From a virus, in the IMG/VR virus record IMGVR_UViG_3300021938_000096, positions 1 to 43,311 of that record: a stretch of 43,311 bases of DNA; one strand, given 5' to 3'. Position numbers and translations under genes: made by a program. Below are positions 1,267 through 39,731 of this stretch, one piece after another. How positions within the stretch are numbered: the first letter of the stretch is position 1; the number at the start of each line of letters is the position of its first letter. The notes beneath the pieces are model-generated. The model was not told the origin of the DNA. It did not search any database and saw only the letters and a list, made by a program, of their open reading frames with translations.

Positions 1267-4200
1267 TCATGCCGCAAGTTTAGATAGGCTTTCTGCCACT
1301 TTGTTTTTTTGCATTTGAATTGTCCTGATTAAATCCCGCTTCGCATCGGGCTCGATATTTGATCTTTCAATATACCGGATGCGTTCATTGAGTTTTGCCT
1401 CAGCCCGCTTCACTTGTTCAACATGCTTGTATTTAATCAAGTCATCGTTGTGTGATTCTTTGAACTCAGTGGCTTCTTGGAATTTGCCTTGCTTAACAAG
1501 GTCGCGGTAAGTTCCATACGACTGTTCAATTTCTTTTGCCTGTGTGTACATCTGGGTAACATACCGGCTGGGTGCGTCGCGCAAGTCGCTGACCATATTG
1601 CCCGTTGCAACTTTCCACATATCAGCCGATGCATGCTCTGCTTGACCTGTAGCGGGTCGCGCAACAATATCCGAAGCGCCGACCACAAACGATCCAAGCC
1701 AGCCGAAATAACCTCGTAGCATATGGTCTATTTGAACGGGGCTTAGTGATTCTTTGCCAACAATGCCAGTTGCTGCGTTCAGGCTGGTGCTGAGCCCTCG
1801 GGCAACCATGCTGGTTCTATCGTTGAACCGATATTCTGGCCTTAGATTTTCTTGCCCCATCGTTTCAATCGGTCGTCCTGTGAAGCTGTCTTTGTTGGCG
1901 TAGATATCAACAATAGGTTTGATAAGTTGAGGCACGGGATTCATGCTCAGGTTGTCACCCAATAAGGTCAGTACCTGATTCAAAAATCGCTTGTTGGTCA
2001 TTTCCTTGTCAAAGGCCAATTCAAAACCGCGTTCTGCCAGTGTGGCAATTGCACCAATTTCAAATGGCTTAGGGATGCGGAAAGCCGTACCGCCGAACTT
2101 GAACCACCAGAAATTATTGCGGTCTGATTCTTCGCGTTTTTTCCAATCGTCGTCATCGCCATAAGCGGCCAACAAGCCAATGGATAAAACAGCCGTTGCA
2201 CCCAGCACAATGCCGAAGCGCTTGGGGTCTTCCTTGGCGGACTTGCCCAATTTGTAAAGACCCTGGAGGCGGGCATTGAAGAACGGAACAACTTGGGTCA
2301 AGAAGCGTATGGTCGCAAAACTTCCCTGCATGGAGAAGTCCATCAGGTCACGCGCCTGCAAGCTGGCTTCTGCATGGTTCATGCCTTGCTTGACAAGCTG
2401 GTCATACAGGCTTGCCCGGTTAATCGCTTCACCACGATTACCAAGTTCGTTGTACGCCGTGACGCCCGGTTCAATGAACTTGCGGTAAAACGCTTTGACC
2501 TTGTGATCGTTGTTCAAAATGGTAGAGGCATCAACGCCGGATTCAACCAGTGCTTGTATGCGTTTGGCCTCGCTGCCTTCCATCATCGTGCCAAAGTGAA
2601 TTGTTCCACCGCCCGCCAGCAAACGGAAATAGGCGTCGCTTTTAGGATCGGTCAGCTTCCATCCCTCTGCAATGTTCTTGGCCGGGTTGTAGCTCAGGTT
2701 ACCAGTTCCGATGGCCTGGACAGAATCTCGAATCAGGTTGCGCACCTTGAAGAACGGGGAGGCCGTCACGCCAATCGTGAGCGCATGCTTCATTGAACTC
2801 ATGGCATTCATGACGGGATTGCGCATGCCTGCATATTCAAGCGATGTCAGCGCCGTCAATAGATAAGGACCGTCCTCTTGGTCGATCAGGCTATATCGTT
2901 TTTGACCACCGTCCATGAACCATACAACTCCCTGTTTGTTGTGAACAGACGATGCCATTTCTGCCAGCGTCGATTGATTCCCGCCCATCGCTGCACCCAC
3001 CGCCTCAGCGGCCTCAATCGTGGCCTTGGCAGCCCTGTTCTTGGCGGCTGCATCCAGGAGGTGAGCCCAGTTCATCAGCGTGTTGTCGAGCAGGTCAGCA
3101 TTGAGTGCACCCTTGCCGCCTTTGAGTGACTTGAATGCCTCTTGCCTGACAACGCTGCCTTTGATGTTCATACCTCTTACACCGCCTTCATCGGCAACGC
3201 GGTAAAAAGGAACGTAAAACTCATGCTCCCAGTACTTTCTTGATTCTGGGTCAATCAAGCCGGATTGCTCGGCCATGTCCAGAATGTTCTTGTTGAAACC
3301 ATTGAACACGCGCAAAGCATCGCCATAAATCAAAGACCTATCCCGCGTTACTTGTCCTGCTTTGGGGCCAGTCTGGATGGTGTAGCCAAAATCCGTGGTG
3401 CCTTCGGACAGTGTTTTCAGGGCTGCAATATCTTCTTTGGTAAACAGATTTTCTTTGCCGTCACCCATCAATCGTTCGGCGCGGTTCGCTGCAACCCAGC
3501 GCATGAAGTCATGGTGTTCACCTTGTAATGGAATCAGCAGCTTATCAACAACACCGCCTTTATTGGCTTGGTCAAAGTCATACACACCATCGGTTAACTT
3601 GAGTTTTCCGCCTTGCAAGAAAGCTTCGAATGCACCGCTTGCACCTTTGGCAAGTCGCATCAAGCCATAGGCTTTTTTATCCAAGTCCTTGACGGGCGCG
3701 AATTGATCGACAATGCCCTGCGCCATTTTCTTGCCCGCATCTTTCCACAGTAATTTGGCGCGCTCTTTCAGCGTGGGCTGGGTGACATCGAAGCCAACAT
3801 TCTTCATGGCTTTCAATTGTTCAGGGGTATGTTTTCGCGATGTTTGACCAACAATGGAGGATCGGCTGAAATAAATGTCAGGGTTCGTGCTGCCACTATC
3901 CGGCGCGGTTGGTTCATTCGGAATTACGGTATCGAGATCATCGTTGACGTAAGCCGATTTGATTTTCTTCAAGGCATCAGAAAATGTGTCTCTGCTGTAG
4001 CCATCGTCTGGCGCAAGGTTGATGTCTGTTTCGCCAAAATGATGCCCACGGTTCACGTTAGAGTGATCGGAAATCCTGACATTGATAATCACATCTTTTT
4101 CGTACCCATCCGCCGTCTTGCCAAAAGATTTGGTGATGGTGACGTACTTATCCCCGCGCCCGGAAACTTTGTAGCCCTCAGCTTCTGCCATATCGGCGAA

Positions 4201-7200
4201 TGCAAGCGACTTGGCTGTGATTTCTGTCGATTCGTCAATATCTCCTTCACCGCCATGTTTTTCAAACGCGGCTTGGGCATCAAATGCAGCGCCCGGTGTT
4301 GAGTCATCGGTAGATTTCCCCTGCTTCATAAATGAAGGAACAAACCCACCATTCATTGTTTTGCTTGAATGCGAGATGGCCGCATAGGCCAACATGGTGA
4401 TGTCGTCATTGTTCAGGTACTTGCCACCAATGCCGAACTCGTTGAACAAGAATGCCTTGATCTTGGAAATCAGTTGTTTGACGAGCGTCATCTCGGGATG
4501 GTTCTGCACCAGATAGGCTAAGTTTTCCTCAGGAATCTGACTTGGGCGAACTGAGTTTTTCTCGGCTTCGTCAAAGGCCGCTTGAACGGCTTTGTTCCCG
4601 GCGCGACGCATCACGTCCAGGCGCTTTATCACGCTGTCGTAACTCTTTTTACCCAACATGCGTTCAAAGCCATAGTGAACGCCGACCTCGTGCAAGACCA
4701 AGCCTTTAACCATGTCCTCCGTGAGATTGCTCAGGACGGCATAAGTCTTGTCGGTTTTAGGGTCATAGAAGCCATAGACAACATCGTTATCCCGCAAGAA
4801 TGGGACGATATGGTTAGGCAGGTTGGATTGGTTTGCCAGCGGGACAACTACACCTTTGGCAATCAGCTTATCAGCAACTTTCGCGCCGAATGCTTTTGTC
4901 AGTGCTTGGTTGAATTGAGTTTGGCTAAGTCCTCTTGGTACAGACTTTACACGAACTCCGCTTTCTGTTTTGGCGTAGAAGATGCCTTTGCTGGATGCAG
5001 GAAATTGACGCCCGACATCCACAAGCTTAGCCAGTATTCCGCTTCCAGGCCTTCCATCGCTGCTTTTTTCGCTTTCTTCGCGTACCAAAGCACTGAGGAC
5101 AGCGTTTCTTTTGTACGTTGCGATCCCAGCACCGCTCTCAGGTCTGCGTCCAACTTCGACAATTTGTCGTATGGCATCGTCATCAAAGACTCCACCCTCT
5201 GAATCTCGGAAGGTTCCAGTTGATAGGTCAAAGGTAAGAAGGTTCGCGCCTGCATGATCGAGTGACTCCATTGATACTTGAATGAGTGACTCGATATTAG
5301 CCAAGTCATCGCCGTATGTCCAGTGCAAAGGTGGAACGCCAATGGAACTTGCGCCTTCAAGCTGACGCGGGTGTGGTGCCAAGTGGCGTGTCGTACCAAA
5401 CTTCAAGGCTGACGATAACATGTTCTCGGTGCGCCTGCGCATGGCTGAATTACTCAATCCAGCTGGGTCTCCAATCAGAATACGCCCCGTATTGTGTGCA
5501 AATGTCGCCGCGATGTTGTAAACTTTTGCGCCATATCCCCCCTCTTTTAACGTGGAAACGTCAATGTAAACGTCCTCCATATCATCAGGAATTGACTCCG
5601 CATTGTCACCAGGTCGATCCGTAGTGACCTGCATATCACCTTCTTCATTTTGAGATATGCCGTAGGCCTGTGGGCCGTAGGGATTGACGCTACGCACCAT
5701 CAGTCGCGCCTTCGCGCCGTTAGGCATGGTAAGTACATAATTCTTCACCAAGCCAGGATATGCGACTGCCTTAACAGTAATGCTTGGGTCAGTGTCTGCT
5801 GCAATGCCTTGCACCGTCGTCTTATCAGATTTCGGCAAAGCAAAAATATCATCATTCTCGCTCAGTGCTTTCAATGCATTTTGTTCGCGTTGGACTGACT
5901 CTCGACTGAACATCGGCCCATCTGCAATCTTCATGCCTTGCTCTGCTTCTGCCACGCCAGTTTTAACATTGATTGAATCCAGTGGGTTGACATCTACTTT
6001 TTTGAGCGCAGCAGCAATGTTCTGGCTGGCGGTTACCCCTGCCATGCTGGTGGGTGTGCTCAGTTCTCCACCATGCACAATGATGGCTGCACCGGCGTTT
6101 GATTGGCTGATAGCGCGGTAGATAGCATTCAACTCGCCGGTGCTTCTCAATGGGCCGTGCATGCCTTGAGTTATGGGCATCCATCCAGCAATAGCGTGGT
6201 GGGCATTCAATAGCAAAATTCCAGGCCCATTGTTCTTGTTGTAGAGCGACTTGGCGGCAATCTTGGCATCTAATGGGCTATTGATCTCGTAGGCGGGCGC
6301 ACCCTTTCCTAGTTGGCGTTCTACCACGGGAACGGTTGCACCTTGTTTGGCGGATGGGATAGGACGATGCAGAGTTGCGTCACCGTGCCCGCGCTCATCA
6401 ACGTAGCTATACTTATCGCCTGCAACAGCCATGATTCCCATGGGCTCGATGCCGCTTCCGCGAAACACGTCGGACAGCGATTGATTCAGCAGCATATCGG
6501 CGCGTGACAGTGATGGGTTTCCGCTGGGGTGGTTGTGCGAAAACCATACGTGTGCAGCGCCGGGTATGCGTACCGCCTCGCCCATCAGGGTTGCCGGGTA
6601 AATTGAGGCTTGAGACAGCGCCCCTTTAAAACCGCCAATTACCGCGAGTGGCTTGCCATTTTTATCAGTGACAATTCCATCGAATCTTTCTACTGCCGAT
6701 TGGTAGAGGTAGCGGGTAGCTTGTGCTGCTTGTTCATGAGTTTGCACAAGGCTTGCGCCCAACTGTCGATCAGCCGTCTTACCCATGATGGTGTTGACGT
6801 AGAACGTGGCATTAGGCAAGTCTGTGTCGGATAGTGCGGCTGTGGGCTGTACGTCCCCACGTAACCCGGCGCGGTTGGATCGGCTGGGTTTAGTTTTTCC
6901 GGTTGGTGCGGGTAGTTCATTGCCAAAAAGATCGGTTGTGTAGTTGTCAGTGTAGTCTCGTTCAGTCTCATTTGCAACTTGGCCGCTATCCTCAATCCTG
7001 GATGGCTTTTCTTTGCTCACCAAATACAGTGGGTCATCCCTATATTCTGGGTTTGCATCTCGTGCCGTGTCGGTCAATGCAAACCGAATAGCGCTACCGG
7101 CATGAACCACGGGCTTGCCGTCTTTCATAGGCATCACGTCCAATCGGTCAAAGCGGGCGCTCCACGCGTAGTATTCAACCCCATTACTATCTATGACAAT

Positions 7201-10200
7201 TGCGCCGCGAGTCAGGTTTGCAGCCTGATCTGGGGTGATTGGCTTTTCTTCCTTGGCCGGGTACGCCGCTTTCAATTCATCTGGCGTGATGTCCCCTGAC
7301 TTGACATCTTTCAAGACGTCGATCCGCTCTTTGCCGGTGACATTGGCGGCGTCAAGAATCTCGGTGGCTTGCGCTGCAGGTGCTTTGTTGGATTTTGCCT
7401 TCTTCAGTTTATCCGCTGCGCCGTAAGCGTCTATGCTGTAGTCAGAATGTAGCACCCAATTTTGGTCATCCCCACGATCTTTGGGTTTGAGATTGGCAGA
7501 AACCATTTCTGTTTTCATCGCCTTTTGTGGCGATTCTTCACCACGAAACCAAACGCCATCCTCAAATTTGGCATAGGTTCCGTTGTCAAGTTTGTAAATT
7601 GCATTCTTGGACGGCGCTTGTTTGGCGTTACCTTGATTTGACTCAGCAAAGATACCGCCCTGACCCGATAGTGAATCCTCGGCGTTTTGACCTAATGCAA
7701 AGTTTTCAGCACTGGCGTATTGCCGGGCTTTTATTTCCACGGCATCGCGTTCAGCCTTTGCCTTCTTTTCGGCGTCAACGTCAGCTTTGATCTTTGCCTT
7801 TTCTTCATTGTCGGCGCGTTCCTGCTGCGCCAGAATATCGGCGCGTGTCGGTGAAACTAAGCCGTGTGCTTCATCGGTGTGGATGTTTCCCGCTTGGCTT
7901 TGTTGGCCCATATCCGCGCCAGAATTTCCACGGCCTGCGGCGATGGATTCTTGTTCGGCGATGGCAGTTTGGATGGCGTGTTTTGCGAGTTCATAGTATT
8001 CCTGATTAGATACGCTTTCGTTATGTTCTGCAACCTCCATCCGCACAGATTCTGAATCAATCCCTAGTGCGTCAAGTTGCGAAGACAGGGCAGCTACTTC
8101 CTGTTGAATCTCGGGGTTGGCTTCGGCAAAGCCTGTGCCTTGAAGATCGGCCTCAATAATGCCTTCACCCGCCATAGATGCAAACGGGTCATAGTCCTCA
8201 CTTTGTGCGGCATCTTGCTCTGCGGCCAGGTAATCGGCAAAGCGCTGATCGGCTTCGCGTCCGGCCATGAGTTCCGTATCCTGCGGGGTGTAGCGCGGGC
8301 TATTCAGGGATTGCTTGATGAGGTTACGGGCTTCTTCGTGGCTGTCGCCTTCGTTCAAGTAGCCTGATTCGATCAATCGCTCAGTGGCTTGCTCGATGGT
8401 CATCCCACGGCCAGCGCCTGCAAACAGACTGCGGTTGCCAATGCGAACATTGCCTTCCATTCCCATATCGGCGCGGGTACTGGGGGATAACATACCTTCA
8501 CCAGCAATAAATTCATGCGCAGCGATCGGTGTTCCGGCTTGTCCTGTGGTCGCCAAACCCAAACGGCGGGCCGCTTTTTCTTGGGCGGCAAGTTGTTTCT
8601 CGGTCTTGGGGGCCAAGGCGAATCCACCGGCCACCTTCACCACGCGTAACATGGGCTGCTGTTTCTTGGCGCTGTCGGCAGACTTCTTCGACTTGAAGGG
8701 TTTGCCGCCTTCACGTAACGGCGCGCTATCAACGCCCAAGTGTTCTTGGTCATGCGCTTCACGCTCGGCCTGAATTTCAGCCAGCGACTGGGTGATCTTT
8801 GCACGGGTCGATATCGGGATGGTCGCCCACTTCTTTTCTAGCAGCTTGCGGACTGTGATGTCGCCGCCTTTGGTTGCCATGCCTGCACGTCTAATGGCAT
8901 CGGTGCGAGCGCTCGCGTCCAAACTGTCCCAGTACTCAATCGGCCCACTGCCCGCTTGGGCGGGCGCATCACCCGAGACTGCGGGGGCTTGACTTTCAGC
9001 TACAGGCTCGGCAGTAGGTTGCTCCGAATTTACTTGTCGTTCGGTTCCTCGTTCCGACGTCGATTGTTCCGCTGCTGGCGCGATGGTTTTGGCGGACGTA
9101 ATGACATCGGTGGTTCCTTCAATATTGGGTTTAGTCGTGGCTTTCTGCATAGCCAACTGCATAGCCGTAGGCGCTTCTGCAATCTTCGCCGCTTCTAGTG
9201 CGCGTCCTTGGGCTTGCAGATCATTCAAATCACGGTCATTGGAAAACTCGCGTTGCAGTTCTGCCCGCAAGGTTTCCAAGTCGCGGCCTTCGCGTGTAAC
9301 GAGGTCGTTCAACTCATAGGCTTTTTCTGTGCCAACTTTAGGCAAAGTTGCAATGTCAGGATACGCCGACAACAACCCCGCTTCACCGCCATAGGCTTGG
9401 GCCGATTGCTGATCCCGAATAGGGGTTCCCGCTTTGACCGCATCTATGAAGTTGGTGACGGCTTGCGCGGACAGTACAGAATTGTCAGCGGCTTTGATGG
9501 CGTCATCAACGGTCGCGGCTTTGCCGATGTCGGCAATGTGGGTGATGGGGGCTTTTTGTGGGCTGCTTAGAATCCCGCCTGCGCTGCTGTGCAATACACC
9601 GCCTAGCATACCTTGGGCAGCGGCGTCGAGTGCATTGCCTTGGTTCGCTTCGGATTGATTCCATGGCAGCATATTGGCTTCATTGCCTTTGCCGTATTCC
9701 TCGATTCCAGTTTGTCCGTATTCGGTCAAACCTTCAATCGGCGCGGCTACCAATGAACTTGTCCCGGCACGGGTTAGCTTGCCTTTGATACCCGGCATTT
9801 CTCCCAGTTTCTTGCTGATGGCAAGTTTGCCTTTAAGGGCTTCAAGGCCCAACATGCGTTCGCCAAACTCAGCCGTTCCCGCCAAGAAAGTAGCGCCCAG
9901 GGCCTTGGCAATTTCTTCACCGGTTAATGCGCGGTTTTCATCCACGGATTTCTTGGCAATACCGCCGCCGATTTCACCGCCTTCCATACCGTAAGCACTA
10001 GCGCCCGTCGCTGTGGCTGCGCCAATCCGCCCGGCTACATTGGCCGTAGCCGCTTTCGCCAGTTGATCTGCTGAGAGTTTTGCGCCTTCTTCGGTAGCAG
10101 CCAATGCAGCGGCTTCTTTCGACACCATGCCACTGGCTAACTTTTCAACCGTCGCTTTCAAACCCGCTTTTCCGATCACGGAACCGAGTCCAGCCGTCGC

Positions 10201-10608
10201 CAGCATCTGCGCCGCTTGTCCGCCCGCATAGCCAATGCCGTGCGTCAACCAATCCACCATAGCGCCGAAGTCGCCTTCTTTGGCTTTGTCGTACGAATAG
10301 GTAAATGAATCGGATGGCAGTGCATCCTTTTGCATTTTGTCCTCATACGCTTGATAGCCTTTAACGCCCGCCTTTTTGATGCCAGTCGCAATACCGCCTT
10401 CACCGAAGGCTGTTTCTGCCGTTGCACCCGCACCCGCCATCAATCCATACCCGAGTTGCGGGAGTTGCTGGAATGCTTCTTTTACCCCTCGGCCTGCATT
10501 GGCAACGATGCCAACCGGTGCCGCTGGTTTTTCGGGTACAAACTTATCCCATTCATTGAACGTGGAAAAGTCCTGTGGCGCTTCCGGTTTGAATGTTGAC
10601 CAATCCAT
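1267..10608 (-). CDS. Giant multidomain virion-associated protein with RadC-like JAB motif and LPD38-like C-terminus
   Basis: This single intact frame encodes 3113 residues, over a fifth of the window. The N-terminus carries a short repeated phrase (DWSTFKPEAPQDFSTFNEWD) followed by Ala/Gly-rich amphipathic stretches (about 30-260), then long Gln/Glu/Ala-rich linkers. Around residue 1358 is HNHPSGNPSLSRAD, matching the metal-binding HxHPSG..SxxD motif of RadC/JAB domains; a second, degenerate JAB-like segment follows near 1436-1550. HEVGVH sits at 1973-1978. From about 2270 to the end the text resembles the LPD38-type polyvalent protein domain, with one hydrophobic segment (IVLGATAVLSIGLLAAYG, near 2800). 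By analogy with giant proteins of Bcep22-like podophages it is likely an internal, ejected virion protein combining DNA-delivery and effector-type activities; that role is inferred. It is the last gene of the late region. Confidence 0.9.
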   Translation of the reverse strand: MDWSTFKPEAPQDFSTFNEWDKFVPEKPAAPVGIVANAGRGVKEAFQQLPQLGYGLMAGAGATAETAFGEGGIATGIKKAGVKGYQAYEDKMQKDALPSDSFTYSYDKAKEGDFGAMVDWLTHGIGYAGGQAAQMLATAGLGSVIGKAGLKATVEKLASGMVSKEAAALAATEEGAKLSADQLAKAATANVAGRIGAATATGASAYGMEGGEIGGGIAKKSVDENRALTGEEIAKALGATFLAGTAEFGERMLGLEALKGKLAISKKLGEMPGIKGKLTRAGTSSLVAAPIEGLTEYGQTGIEEYGKGNEANMLPWNQSEANQGNALDAAAQGMLGGVLHSSAGGILSSPQKAPITHIADIGKAATVDDAIKAADNSVLSAQAVTNFIDAVKAGTPIRDQQSAQAYGGEAGLLSAYPDIATLPKVGTEKAYELNDLVTREGRDLETLRAELQREFSNDRDLNDLQAQGRALEAAKIAEAPTAMQLAMQKATTKPNIEGTTDVITSAKTIAPAAEQSTSERGTERQVNSEQPTAEPVAESQAPAVSGDAPAQAGSGPIEYWDSLDASARTDAIRRAGMATKGGDITVRKLLEKKWATIPISTRAKITQSLAEIQAEREAHDQEHLGVDSAPLREGGKPFKSKKSADSAKKQQPMLRVVKVAGGFALAPKTEKQLAAQEKAARRLGLATTGQAGTPIAAHEFIAGEGMLSPSTRADMGMEGNVRIGNRSLFAGAGRGMTIEQATERLIESGYLNEGDSHEEARNLIKQSLNSPRYTPQDTELMAGREADQRFADYLAAEQDAAQSEDYDPFASMAGEGIIEADLQGTGFAEANPEIQQEVAALSSQLDALGIDSESVRMEVAEHNESVSNQEYYELAKHAIQTAIAEQESIAAGRGNSGADMGQQSQAGNIHTDEAHGLVSPTRADILAQQERADNEEKAKIKADVDAEKKAKAERDAVEIKARQYASAENFALGQNAEDSLSGQGGIFAESNQGNAKQAPSKNAIYKLDNGTYAKFEDGVWFRGEESPQKAMKTEMVSANLKPKDRGDDQNWVLHSDYSIDAYGAADKLKKAKSNKAPAAQATEILDAANVTGKERIDVLKDVKSGDITPDELKAAYPAKEEKPITPDQAANLTRGAIVIDSNGVEYYAWSARFDRLDVMPMKDGKPVVHAGSAIRFALTDTARDANPEYRDDPLYLVSKEKPSRIEDSGQVANETERDYTDNYTTDLFGNELPAPTGKTKPSRSNRAGLRGDVQPTAALSDTDLPNATFYVNTIMGKTADRQLGASLVQTHEQAAQATRYLYQSAVERFDGIVTDKNGKPLAVIGGFKGALSQASIYPATLMGEAVRIPGAAHVWFSHNHPSGNPSLSRADMLLNQSLSDVFRGSGIEPMGIMAVAGDKYSYVDERGHGDATLHRPIPSAKQGATVPVVERQLGKGAPAYEINSPLDAKIAAKSLYNKNNGPGILLLNAHHAIAGWMPITQGMHGPLRSTGELNAIYRAISQSNAGAAIIVHGGELSTPTSMAGVTASQNIAAALKKVDVNPLDSINVKTGVAEAEQGMKIADGPMFSRESVQREQNALKALSENDDIFALPKSDKTTVQGIAADTDPSITVKAVAYPGLVKNYVLTMPNGAKARLMVRSVNPYGPQAYGISQNEEGDMQVTTDRPGDNAESIPDDMEDVYIDVSTLKEGGYGAKVYNIAATFAHNTGRILIGDPAGLSNSAMRRRTENMLSSALKFGTTRHLAPHPRQLEGASSIGVPPLHWTYGDDLANIESLIQVSMESLDHAGANLLTFDLSTGTFRDSEGGVFDDDAIRQIVEVGRRPESGAGIATYKRNAVLSALVREESEKSSDGRPGSGILAKLVDVGRQFPASSKGIFYAKTESGVRVKSVPRGLSQTQFNQALTKAFGAKVADKLIAKGVVVPLANQSNLPNHIVPFLRDNDVVYGFYDPKTDKTYAVLSNLTEDMVKGLVLHEVGVHYGFERMLGKKSYDSVIKRLDVMRRAGNKAVQAAFDEAEKNSVRPSQIPEENLAYLVQNHPEMTLVKQLISKIKAFLFNEFGIGGKYLNNDDITMLAYAAISHSSKTMNGGFVPSFMKQGKSTDDSTPGAAFDAQAAFEKHGGEGDIDESTEITAKSLAFADMAEAEGYKVSGRGDKYVTITKSFGKTADGYEKDVIINVRISDHSNVNRGHHFGETDINLAPDDGYSRDTFSDALKKIKSAYVNDDLDTVIPNEPTAPDSGSTNPDIYFSRSSIVGQTSRKHTPEQLKAMKNVGFDVTQPTLKERAKLLWKDAGKKMAQGIVDQFAPVKDLDKKAYGLMRLAKGASGAFEAFLQGGKLKLTDGVYDFDQANKGGVVDKLLIPLQGEHHDFMRWVAANRAERLMGDGKENLFTKEDIAALKTLSEGTTDFGYTIQTGPKAGQVTRDRSLIYGDALRVFNGFNKNILDMAEQSGLIDPESRKYWEHEFYVPFYRVADEGGVRGMNIKGSVVRQEAFKSLKGGKGALNADLLDNTLMNWAHLLDAAAKNRAAKATIEAAEAVGAAMGGNQSTLAEMASSVHNKQGVVWFMDGGQKRYSLIDQEDGPYLLTALTSLEYAGMRNPVMNAMSSMKHALTIGVTASPFFKVRNLIRDSVQAIGTGNLSYNPAKNIAEGWKLTDPKSDAYFRLLAGGGTIHFGTMMEGSEAKRIQALVESGVDASTILNNDHKVKAFYRKFIEPGVTAYNELGNRGEAINRASLYDQLVKQGMNHAEASLQARDLMDFSMQGSFATIRFLTQVVPFFNARLQGLYKLGKSAKEDPKRFGIVLGATAVLSIGLLAAYGDDDDWKKREESDRNNFWWFKFGGTAFRIPKPFEIGAIATLAERGFELAFDKEMTNKRFLNQVLTLLGDNLSMNPVPQLIKPIVDIYANKDSFTGRPIETMGQENLRPEYRFNDRTSMVARGLSTSLNAATGIVGKESLSPVQIDHMLRGYFGWLGSFVVGASDIVARPATGQAEHASADMWKVATGNMVSDLRDAPSRYVTQMYTQAKEIEQSYGTYRDLVKQGKFQEATEFKESHNDDLIKYKHVEQVKRAEAKLNERIRYIERSNIEPDAKRDLIRTIQMQKNKVAESLSKLAA

Positions 10609-39077: not shown

Positions 39078-39452
39078 TTAAATCCCCATAGGTTGCCGAT
39101 AATCTGTCATGTGCTTGTTCCCCTTGTCTTTGTTGCATAATCCGCAAAGCACTTGCAAGTTTTCAAAGCTAAGCGCTAACTCAGGATAAAATTTACGCGG
39201 CTTCACATGGTCAACATGAATACGACGCGTGTTGTCCGAGGTGTACCCGCAGCACATGCACTTGGCACCATATTTCTCTAACACCTTTGCCCTCAATTCA
39301 CGCCATGCTGTGGATCGCAGGAAGTCACCGCCAGTTGTTTTAATGTCCTCTGCAATCTCGTTAGCGCTCTTCTTCTTGAGTGAAAAAACAAAGTCAGACT
39401 TTGCTGTCCTCATCTTCAATTTGGCTATGAGCCGTTTCTGTTTGCTGATCAT
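39078..39452 (-). CDS. HNH endonuclease
   Basis: The ATG at 39452 (MISKQKRLIAKLKMRTAKSD) is chosen over a TTG at 39473 that lies inside the terminator tail. The 124-residue product has the HNH core: STAWRELRAKVLEKYGAKCM with CMCCG, then RIHVDHVKPRKFYPELALSF (catalytic DH), ENLQVLCGLCNKDKGNKH with the second zinc pair. This is the common freestanding McrA-like HNH form. It could assist packaging or recombination, or be a homing-type nuclease. The gene is preceded immediately by a structured RNA and terminator. Confidence 0.85.
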   Translation of the reverse strand: MISKQKRLIAKLKMRTAKSDFVFSLKKKSANEIAEDIKTTGGDFLRSTAWRELRAKVLEKYGAKCMCCGYTSDNTRRIHVDHVKPRKFYPELALSFENLQVLCGLCNKDKGNKHMTDYRQPMGI

Positions 39453-39470: not shown

Positions 39471-39581
39471 CAAAAAACCCGCTAAGGTTTTCGACTCTCC
39501 GCGTGGCAGCGAGGGGATTTCTCCCCGAAGAGCCGAAGCCTTAACGGGTTCGGTGTTTTGTGTCTTGCTGCCACGCTTGAC
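39471..39581 (-). ncRNA. Predicted structured small RNA or leader with crossing helices and terminator
   Basis: On the minus strand a transcript of about 110 bases is predicted. Two long pairings cross each other. GCGTGGCAGC (39567-39576) pairs perfectly with GCTGCCACGC (39501-39510). AACCCGTTAAGG (39539-39550) pairs with CCTTAGCGGGTT (39476-39487) with one mismatch and is extended inward by CTTCGGCTCT/AGAGTCGAA (39529-39538 with 39490-39498, one mismatch). A GGGG-AGAAAT-CCCC hairpin (39513-39526) lies inside. The last arm is followed by TTTTTT, so one pairing is a terminator. The order gives either a pseudoknot or two alternative folds. I do not recognise a known family. Confidence 0.6.
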
Positions 39582-39587
39582 GAATAA

Positions 39588-39615
39588 ATATTACCACGAT
39601 TTTGATGCAGGTCAA
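39588..39615 (-). promoter_or_regulatory. Predicted promoter of the structured RNA
   Basis: On the minus strand TTGACC (39610-39615), 16 bases, then TAATAT (39588-39593). The start point would fall near 39581, just before the first long arm of the RNA. The -35 matches consensus at five of six positions; the -10 is weaker. Confidence 0.5.
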
Positions 39616-39625
39616 TAAAAAACAA

Positions 39626-39727
39626 TCATTTTTTCACCCTCGTAACCTTCAAAACACCTTTTGCAATCAATACGATCGTTAGTACGATGCCAACTATTAA
39701 CCCTAGTCCAAAATATAAGGCGTACAT
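39626..39727 (-). CDS. 33-residue single-span membrane peptide
   Basis: This frame lies in the gap between the methyltransferase and the structured RNA. GGGGA is eight bases before the ATG, and the ATG follows the methyltransferase stop by four bases. The product MYALYFGLGLIVGIVLTIVL is followed by IAKGVLKVTRVKK, one hydrophobic span (about 3-22) and a basic tail, giving an N-out or tail-in topology. Its good ribosome site and compact placement make chance unlikely. Function unknown; such peptides in phages can modify membranes or host functions. Confidence 0.6.
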   Translation of the reverse strand: MYALYFGLGLIVGIVLTIVLIAKGVLKVTRVKK

Positions 39728-39731
39728 TAAT

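Follow-up and report, generated by a model that had tools for sequence, protein, structure and literature searches.

The question raised by this locus is whether a short stretch between two phage genes encodes a structured RNA and, if so, whether this RNA acts on its own or as the leader of the HNH endonuclease gene that follows it. The locus lies in a 43-kb virus record (IMG/VR record IMGVR_UViG_3300021938_000096), and the whole 43,311-nt stretch that was analyzed is called the window below. A first-pass annotation had described here two long helices with interleaved arms, and had proposed either a freestanding RNA folded as a pseudoknot or a leader whose two folds switch termination ahead of the HNH gene.

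A crossing-helix RNA gene in the window

Both interleaved helices are present on the minus strand, S1 with 10 pairs and the lower part of P2 with 12 pairs, and so are the GGGG/CCCC hairpin, the inward extension of the second helix, the U tract, and the −35/−10 pair before the first arm (Table 1). The locus is flanked by the HNH gene on one side and, on the other side, by an open reading frame for a small membrane peptide, which is located downstream from a cytosine methylase gene. This 33-codon frame (about 39625–39730, minus strand), with the methylase gene on one side and the RNA promoter on the other, encodes the small hydrophobic peptide MYALYFGLGLIVGIVLTIVLIAKGVLKVTRVKK. Elsewhere in the window, positions 1267–10608 of the minus strand form a single open reading frame of 3113 codons.

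Table 1. Positions of the RNA gene, its parts and its neighbor in the window
Feature	Position	Strand	Remarks
−35 hexamer TTGACC	39610..39615	minus	16-nt spacer to −10
−10 hexamer TAATAT, extended (TG ahead)	39588..39593	minus	
RNA gene	39472..39581	minus	predicted +1 G39581, predicted 3′ end in U tract; about 105 nt
S1 5′ arm GCGTGGCAGC	39567..39576	minus	39576–39567 with 39510–39501, 10 perfect pairs; covariation
Linker AAGACACAAAACACCG	39551..39566	minus	
P5 alternative hairpin CCGAA.CC/GG.UUCGG, from P2 5′ arm alone	39533..39553	minus	suggestive only
P2 lower 5′ arm	39539..39550	minus	39550–39539 with 39487–39476, 12 pairs including one G-U; covariation
P2 upper 5′ arm	39527..39537	minus	39537–39527 with 39500–39490, 11 pairs, P2 total 23 bp; covariation
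P3 hairpin GGGGA/UCCCC, GAAA loop	39513..39526	minus	covariation
S1 3′ arm GCTGCCACGC	39501..39510	minus	between P3 and P2 3′ arm
P2 upper 3′ arm	39490..39500	minus	covariation
P2 lower 3′ arm	39476..39487	minus	covariation
U tract of predicted intrinsic terminator	39472..39477	minus	
HNH endonuclease gene 3′ of RNA, likely ATG 39452	39078..39452	minus	Pfam HNH; neighbor, outside RNA

The structure is unusual for its composition. The minimum free energy (MFE) of the 121-nt segment was −51.5 kcal/mol, as compared to −33.5 ± 3.4 kcal/mol for shuffled sequences (z of −5.3), and a crossing pair of 10-bp helices appeared in 0 of 2000 dinucleotide shuffles. No second such pair was found among 4320 overlapping 121-nt stretches covering the whole window on both strands. 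Scans of the window with promoter and terminator consensus sequences alone gave no more sites than in shuffles, and matches of this kind carry weight only because they are conserved in relatives.

Conservation of the RNA in uncultured phages

Pattern scans of IMG/VR detected the same RNA in at least 36 contigs besides the window, all of them from uncultured phages and with one copy per phage record. The first scan, which required both exact S1 arms with 40–70 bases between them, returned eight stretches, of which three proved to be true relatives that share the architecture but differ in their terminator stems; the rest were coincidences. In the second scan the pattern combined the cores of both arms with the AGACA linker between them, and it matched 26 stretches, among them groups D, E, and F. 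S1 pairing was not demanded in the third scan, which used the 5′ element alone, nor in the fourth, which used only the 5′ flank, the linker and the terminator end. These pairing-free scans gave new groups, in which the two S1 arms had changed together (GCATCGCAGC/GCTGCGATGT, GCATTGCGGC/GCCGCAATGT, GCGTTGCGGC/GCCGCAACGT, GCGTAGCGGC/GCCGCTACGT, GCGTCGCGGC/GCCGCGATGT, and GCGTGCAGGC/GCCTGCACGC). The extra matches from a looser viral scan were coincidences only, and a locus of a jumbo phage (L040) looked suggestive but was not matched by the covariance model.

The 36 contigs and the window fall into roughly ten sequence groups: A (the window), B (L005, L007), C (L008), D (L015, L017, L019–L021, L024, L026–L028, L030, L031, L033, L034), E (L013, L014, L016, L029), F (L018), G (L068, L070–L072, L075, L079, L080, L086–L088, L092, L093), and the singletons L077, L082, and L095, each a group of its own. 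Because many contigs inside groups D, E, and G are closely related, the number of independent cases is about ten. A covariance model trained without group D matched group D at an E-value of about 1e-6, and a model trained without groups C and D recovered both. The best-conserved letters of the family are at the 5′ end and in the linker; the invariance of GUC, AGACA, and the terminal GG-N-UUUU was imposed in part, because these letters were included in some of the search patterns.

Covariation, which the first-pass annotation had suggested looking for, was found at both S1 and P2. S1 forms 10 of 10 pairs in all 26 members examined, while its letters vary. Taken alone, this helix is 100% paired, with 5 of its 10 pairs altered on both sides, and one of its pairs shows all four Watson–Crick types; its covariation score was 0.467, while shuffles gave 0.169 and slid arms no more than 0.152. 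For S1, P2, and P3 together, in the 18 distinct sequences outside groups D and C, 98.3% of cells were paired, 22 of 37 pairs were altered on both sides, and the score was 0.519 (shuffles, 0.220 ± 0.015; slid, at most 0.163), which includes covariation of P2 and P3 as well. The lengths of the helices change little. S1 has 10 pairs in every member examined, P2 consists of 12 and 11 pairs with a small bulge in nearly all of the 18 rows, P3 ranges from 4 to 8 pairs, and the linker from 9 to 17 nt; in groups C and D, P2 is shorter (13 pairs) and short single strands are located beside S1. The S1 3′ arm, which is unpaired in the nested fold, is always placed between P3 and the P2 3′ arm. Two other candidate helices were put aside: a 5′ mini-hairpin GUC..GC/GC..GAC, proposed by RNAalifold, could not be judged because its letters are invariant, and another hairpin would join the P2 3′ arm to bases after the U tract, where purine-rich and U-rich stretches pair easily.

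Because pairing is kept while the letters differ, and this in at least 36 other contigs, the family is real, and the phage RNA is confirmed as a crossing-helix RNA that did not arise by chance. As S1 and P2 share no bases, they point to a pseudoknot rather than to alternative folds, and in structural kind the RNA, with S1 and P2 crossing and both covarying, is predicted to be a small RNA with an H-type pseudoknot. The earlier idea that these two helices are the two states of a switch fails, since they use different bases and can coexist.

The ends of the RNA are also conserved. A match to TATAAT in at least five of six bases is located 5–8 nt before GUC in 24 of 27 members, as compared to 0.6% at random places in the same loci. 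Because this distance is fixed, transcription likely starts at GUC (G39581 in the window), and the promoter is of the sigma-70 type. P2 is followed by 5–7 U in all members examined, which is the makeup of an intrinsic terminator, and termination is predicted there.

Relation to known RNAs

Rfam 15 at gathering thresholds gave no match in the window or at the loci of six relatives, and nothing credible at a relaxed E-value, which agrees with the early impression that the fold lies outside known RNA classes. BLASTN of a phage collection with six queries (the window and relatives) returned nothing beyond chance matches; inspection of the one in Pseudomonas phage Itty13 showed no such RNA. The RNA was not found in a plasmid collection, nor in cultured relatives recognized by their capsid or terminase, namely MEP301, Dunaliella virus SI2, Rhodoferax P26218, Rhizobium RHph_N2, two Manatee Spring phages, and 50 kb of Achromobacter CF418P1; the cultured phages were searched by BLAST or as a few genomes only. 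In bacteria, a pattern run over 84,980 species gave four matches, which were coincidences lacking the terminator, the covariance model found none in 398 Pseudomonadota genomes, and the pattern of the 5′ element occurred at about control level. No relation of the RNA to tRNA was seen, and no description of it was found in the open-licence literature. The family is apparently new and undescribed, and it is probably restricted to phages.

Several known systems resemble this RNA in part. GOLLD and ROOL RNAs are linked to phages or prophages. They are free-standing and strongly structured RNAs, for which a role has not been established (PMC12286853), and the likeness consists in these three traits, while GOLLD and ROOL are several hundred nucleotides long and ornate, and the window RNA is about 105 nt long, has its own terminator and lacks an Rfam match. 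Type III antitoxin RNAs, ToxI and CptI, also form pseudoknots near a terminator (PMC8860590, PMC5772629). However, in ToxI and CptI the unit is repeated in tandem ahead of a gene for a ribonuclease toxin, while the phage RNA is a single unit: the tandem pseudoknot repeats typical of ToxIN, CptIN, and TenpIN are absent, each locus having one unit and each phage record one copy. Downstream genes gave no match to a toxin family such as ToxN-like endoribonucleases, the neighbors being HNH, replication, helicase, Rha, and queuine transferase genes and some unnamed ones.

In the phage lambda pR′–tR′ leader (6S transcript), and in other early-terminated leaders, a promoter is followed by a short transcript, a terminator and then phage genes, and the phage RNA shares this order. 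It differs from the lambda leader in being itself structured and in its position before many kinds of operons; no match to a Q-like gene was found among about 20 window proteins, several of them without a family. The put RNA of phage HK022, which consists of two stem–loops without a terminator of its own, is similar in that both are structured phage RNAs that could act, while nascent, on polymerase, but its architecture is different, a distinction drawn by description rather than by sequence comparison. Like riboswitch attenuator leaders, the RNA has a predicted junction fold that competes with the stem of a terminator; in contrast to them, it conserves the letters of its junction only in the linker, and its downstream genes have no shared pathway. 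As to the omega RNA of IscB (HEARO), there was no Rfam HEARO match, and the neighboring gene encodes an HNH protein of 131 amino acids without an IscB-type RuvC–HNH arrangement or any other domain match.

Genomic surroundings and possible roles

The RNA is found next to very different genes. It precedes replication genes in groups D and C (for example in L028), a gene followed by an exonuclease gene in B, and a Rha-like gene in L095. Two contigs carry it in divergent regions, where it points to the exonuclease-side operon in L007 and precedes an SNF2 helicase gene, across from the exonuclease operon, in L077. In group E it is placed some 240 nt before a gene resembling queuine tRNA-ribosyltransferase, upstream of terminase; in L013 and L016 this downstream gene adjoins an apparent queuosine-precursor transporter. 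It lies between the scaffold and capsid genes in group G (for example in L075), and beside NinG, divergent and on the other strand, in group F. In co-directional settings the RNA always has the orientation of the next gene. Since in other phages the RNA stands before genes for replication, recombination, a helicase, the capsid and other functions, and genes of the same HNH family follow it in some phages only, its dependence on the HNH gene is not supported. From the initial interpretation, the structured phage RNA with its own promoter, pseudoknot and terminator is supported, while the two-helix switch and the dependence on HNH are not.

Group G is informative about autonomy. There the −35 box of the RNA promoter falls within the reach of a terminator located upstream, and the capsid gene is served by a separate promoter, TTGACA-15-TATAAT; because of this terminator and the separate capsid promoter, the RNA is insulated. 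In L070, L072, L075, and others the hairpin of the upstream terminator, GCCCCTGCTTGACAGGGGCTTTTTTT, holds the −35 box about 30–50 nt before the RNA start. Two further observations were made in this group. The HNH gene occurs here as an optional insert that separates the RNA region from the capsid gene. The RNA is directly followed on its 3′ side by a stretch of about 240 nt (L075:4557–4800, with equivalents in L068, L070, L071, L080, L086, L087, L088, L092, and L093), which is non-coding as judged by indels and 88–94% identical in most pairs, while capsid genes are as low as 58–76%; Rfam gave no match to it, and this stretch is a candidate for another conserved element, of RNA or DNA.

The presence of one copy per phage, the unrelated loci and the separate promoters in group G favor a free-standing RNA over a leader of HNH or of any particular gene. 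We give about an even chance to the reading in which this is a free-standing phage small RNA gene whose product acts in trans through the shape that it shows to a protein. The action by shape is suggested by helix lengths that are nearly fixed while the letters are free, which means that the shape is kept; binding of a protein in trans is our best guess. Host-type sigma-70 polymerase would start transcription at G39581, and in the emerging RNA the S1 5′ arm would pair with the S1 3′ arm, closing P3 and, weakly, P5. When the P2 3′ arm emerged, P5 would be displaced and the 23-bp terminator stem built, after which transcription would stop in the U tract. If S1 stayed paired, as it could, the product would be a compact H-type pseudoknot, about 105 nt long, whose 5′ end is paired and whose 3′ end is the terminator. 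The candidate partner would be a host RNA-binding protein, the polymerase or a defense protein, rather than an antisense target. The sequence data show the family, its helices, and promoter and terminator sequences that are conserved; expression, termination, the folding order, the coexistence of S1 and P2 in one molecule, the action in trans and the protein partner are what we infer. Energy estimates favor S1 and P2 together in most members at an assumed pseudoknot cost of 9.6 kcal/mol, and the compatibility of a 10-bp S1 and a 23-bp P2 with a 9–17-nt linker was argued from length alone.

A second reading, which we regard as possible but tentative, is a cis-acting transcription attenuator, in which a three-way junction of S1, P5, and P3 would be the read-through fold and P2 the terminator fold, and a signal (a ligand, a protein or polymerase speed) would decide the transcription of downstream genes. 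P5 is predicted to form in members outside groups D and C from the P2 5′ arm before the P2 3′ arm is made; it shares bases with P2 and so conflicts with it, which gives the look of a regulated terminator. It can form in every lineage other than D despite differing letters, and in several members the linker AGA is predicted to pair with UCU at the P5 end, making the three-way junction; in the window AAGA can pair with UCUU at 39531–39528 before the terminator forms. For every prefix ending after S1 and before the P2 3′ arm the MFE fold contains S1 in 26 of 26 members, and the next start codon is located about 20–40 nt past the U tract in the window and in groups B, C, and D, as expected for a leader. 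On the other hand, the downstream genes have nothing in common, the capsid gene of group G has its own promoter, and the next gene is some 240–750 nt away in E, F, G, and L077. The covariation of P5 is modest, with two pairs altered on both sides in the subset counted, and its counterpart in group D is weak. Among six types of hand-chosen P5 arms, 4 of 4 pairs formed within groups and on average 2.6 of 4 between groups, and z was near −0.5 in some members of group G. Competition of P5 with P2 is thus suggestive.

It is unlikely that the RNA is a trans-acting base-pairing or antisense-type regulator with a seed in the conserved 5′ end (GUCRAGC, AAGACA). Its 5′ end and linker are indeed the best-conserved letters, but the search patterns account for part of this conservation, and the letters of S1, which makes up most of the 5′ end, vary freely while pairing is kept. 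Moreover, no second copy of an arm stands out in the window, where 6 were found with one mismatch allowed as compared to 4.9 expected.

That the RNA and the HNH endonuclease make up one homing unit appears very improbable: the HNH gene of the window is 48% identical to the one 3′ of the RNA in the otherwise unrelated phage L072 (L072:9192–9524), and related genes follow the RNA in some group G phages, but it has no HNH neighbor in groups B, C, D, E, and F and in several G members, and the relative L002 has HNH and no RNA in the stretch examined. Least credible of all is a DNA-level signal of two inverted operator sites with an ordinary terminator alongside; the S1 arms are an inverted repeat, and joint changes at both sites could be enforced by a repressor, but the many arm sequences, the G-U pairs between arms, the constant unpaired position of the arms inside the P2/P3 hairpin and the covariation of P2 and P3 around them fit RNA rather than an operator.

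We tentatively suggest that a phage-only RNA with two folds, passing from a three-way junction to a pseudoknotted terminator, serves across unrelated phages to sense a factor or to act as a protein-binding decoy. If this is true, it would sense a host or phage factor during its own synthesis, or divert, for example, a host RNA-binding or defense protein. It would also be uncommon for an RNA to be completed or controlled by a terminator to whose apex the transcript's own 5′ end is bound. Few small phage RNAs have a known mechanism, and this family, with its model and promoter now defined, can be tested directly. The maintenance of one shape across unrelated phages, together with its absence from the sampled bacterial genomes, points to a common host target or regulatory trick.
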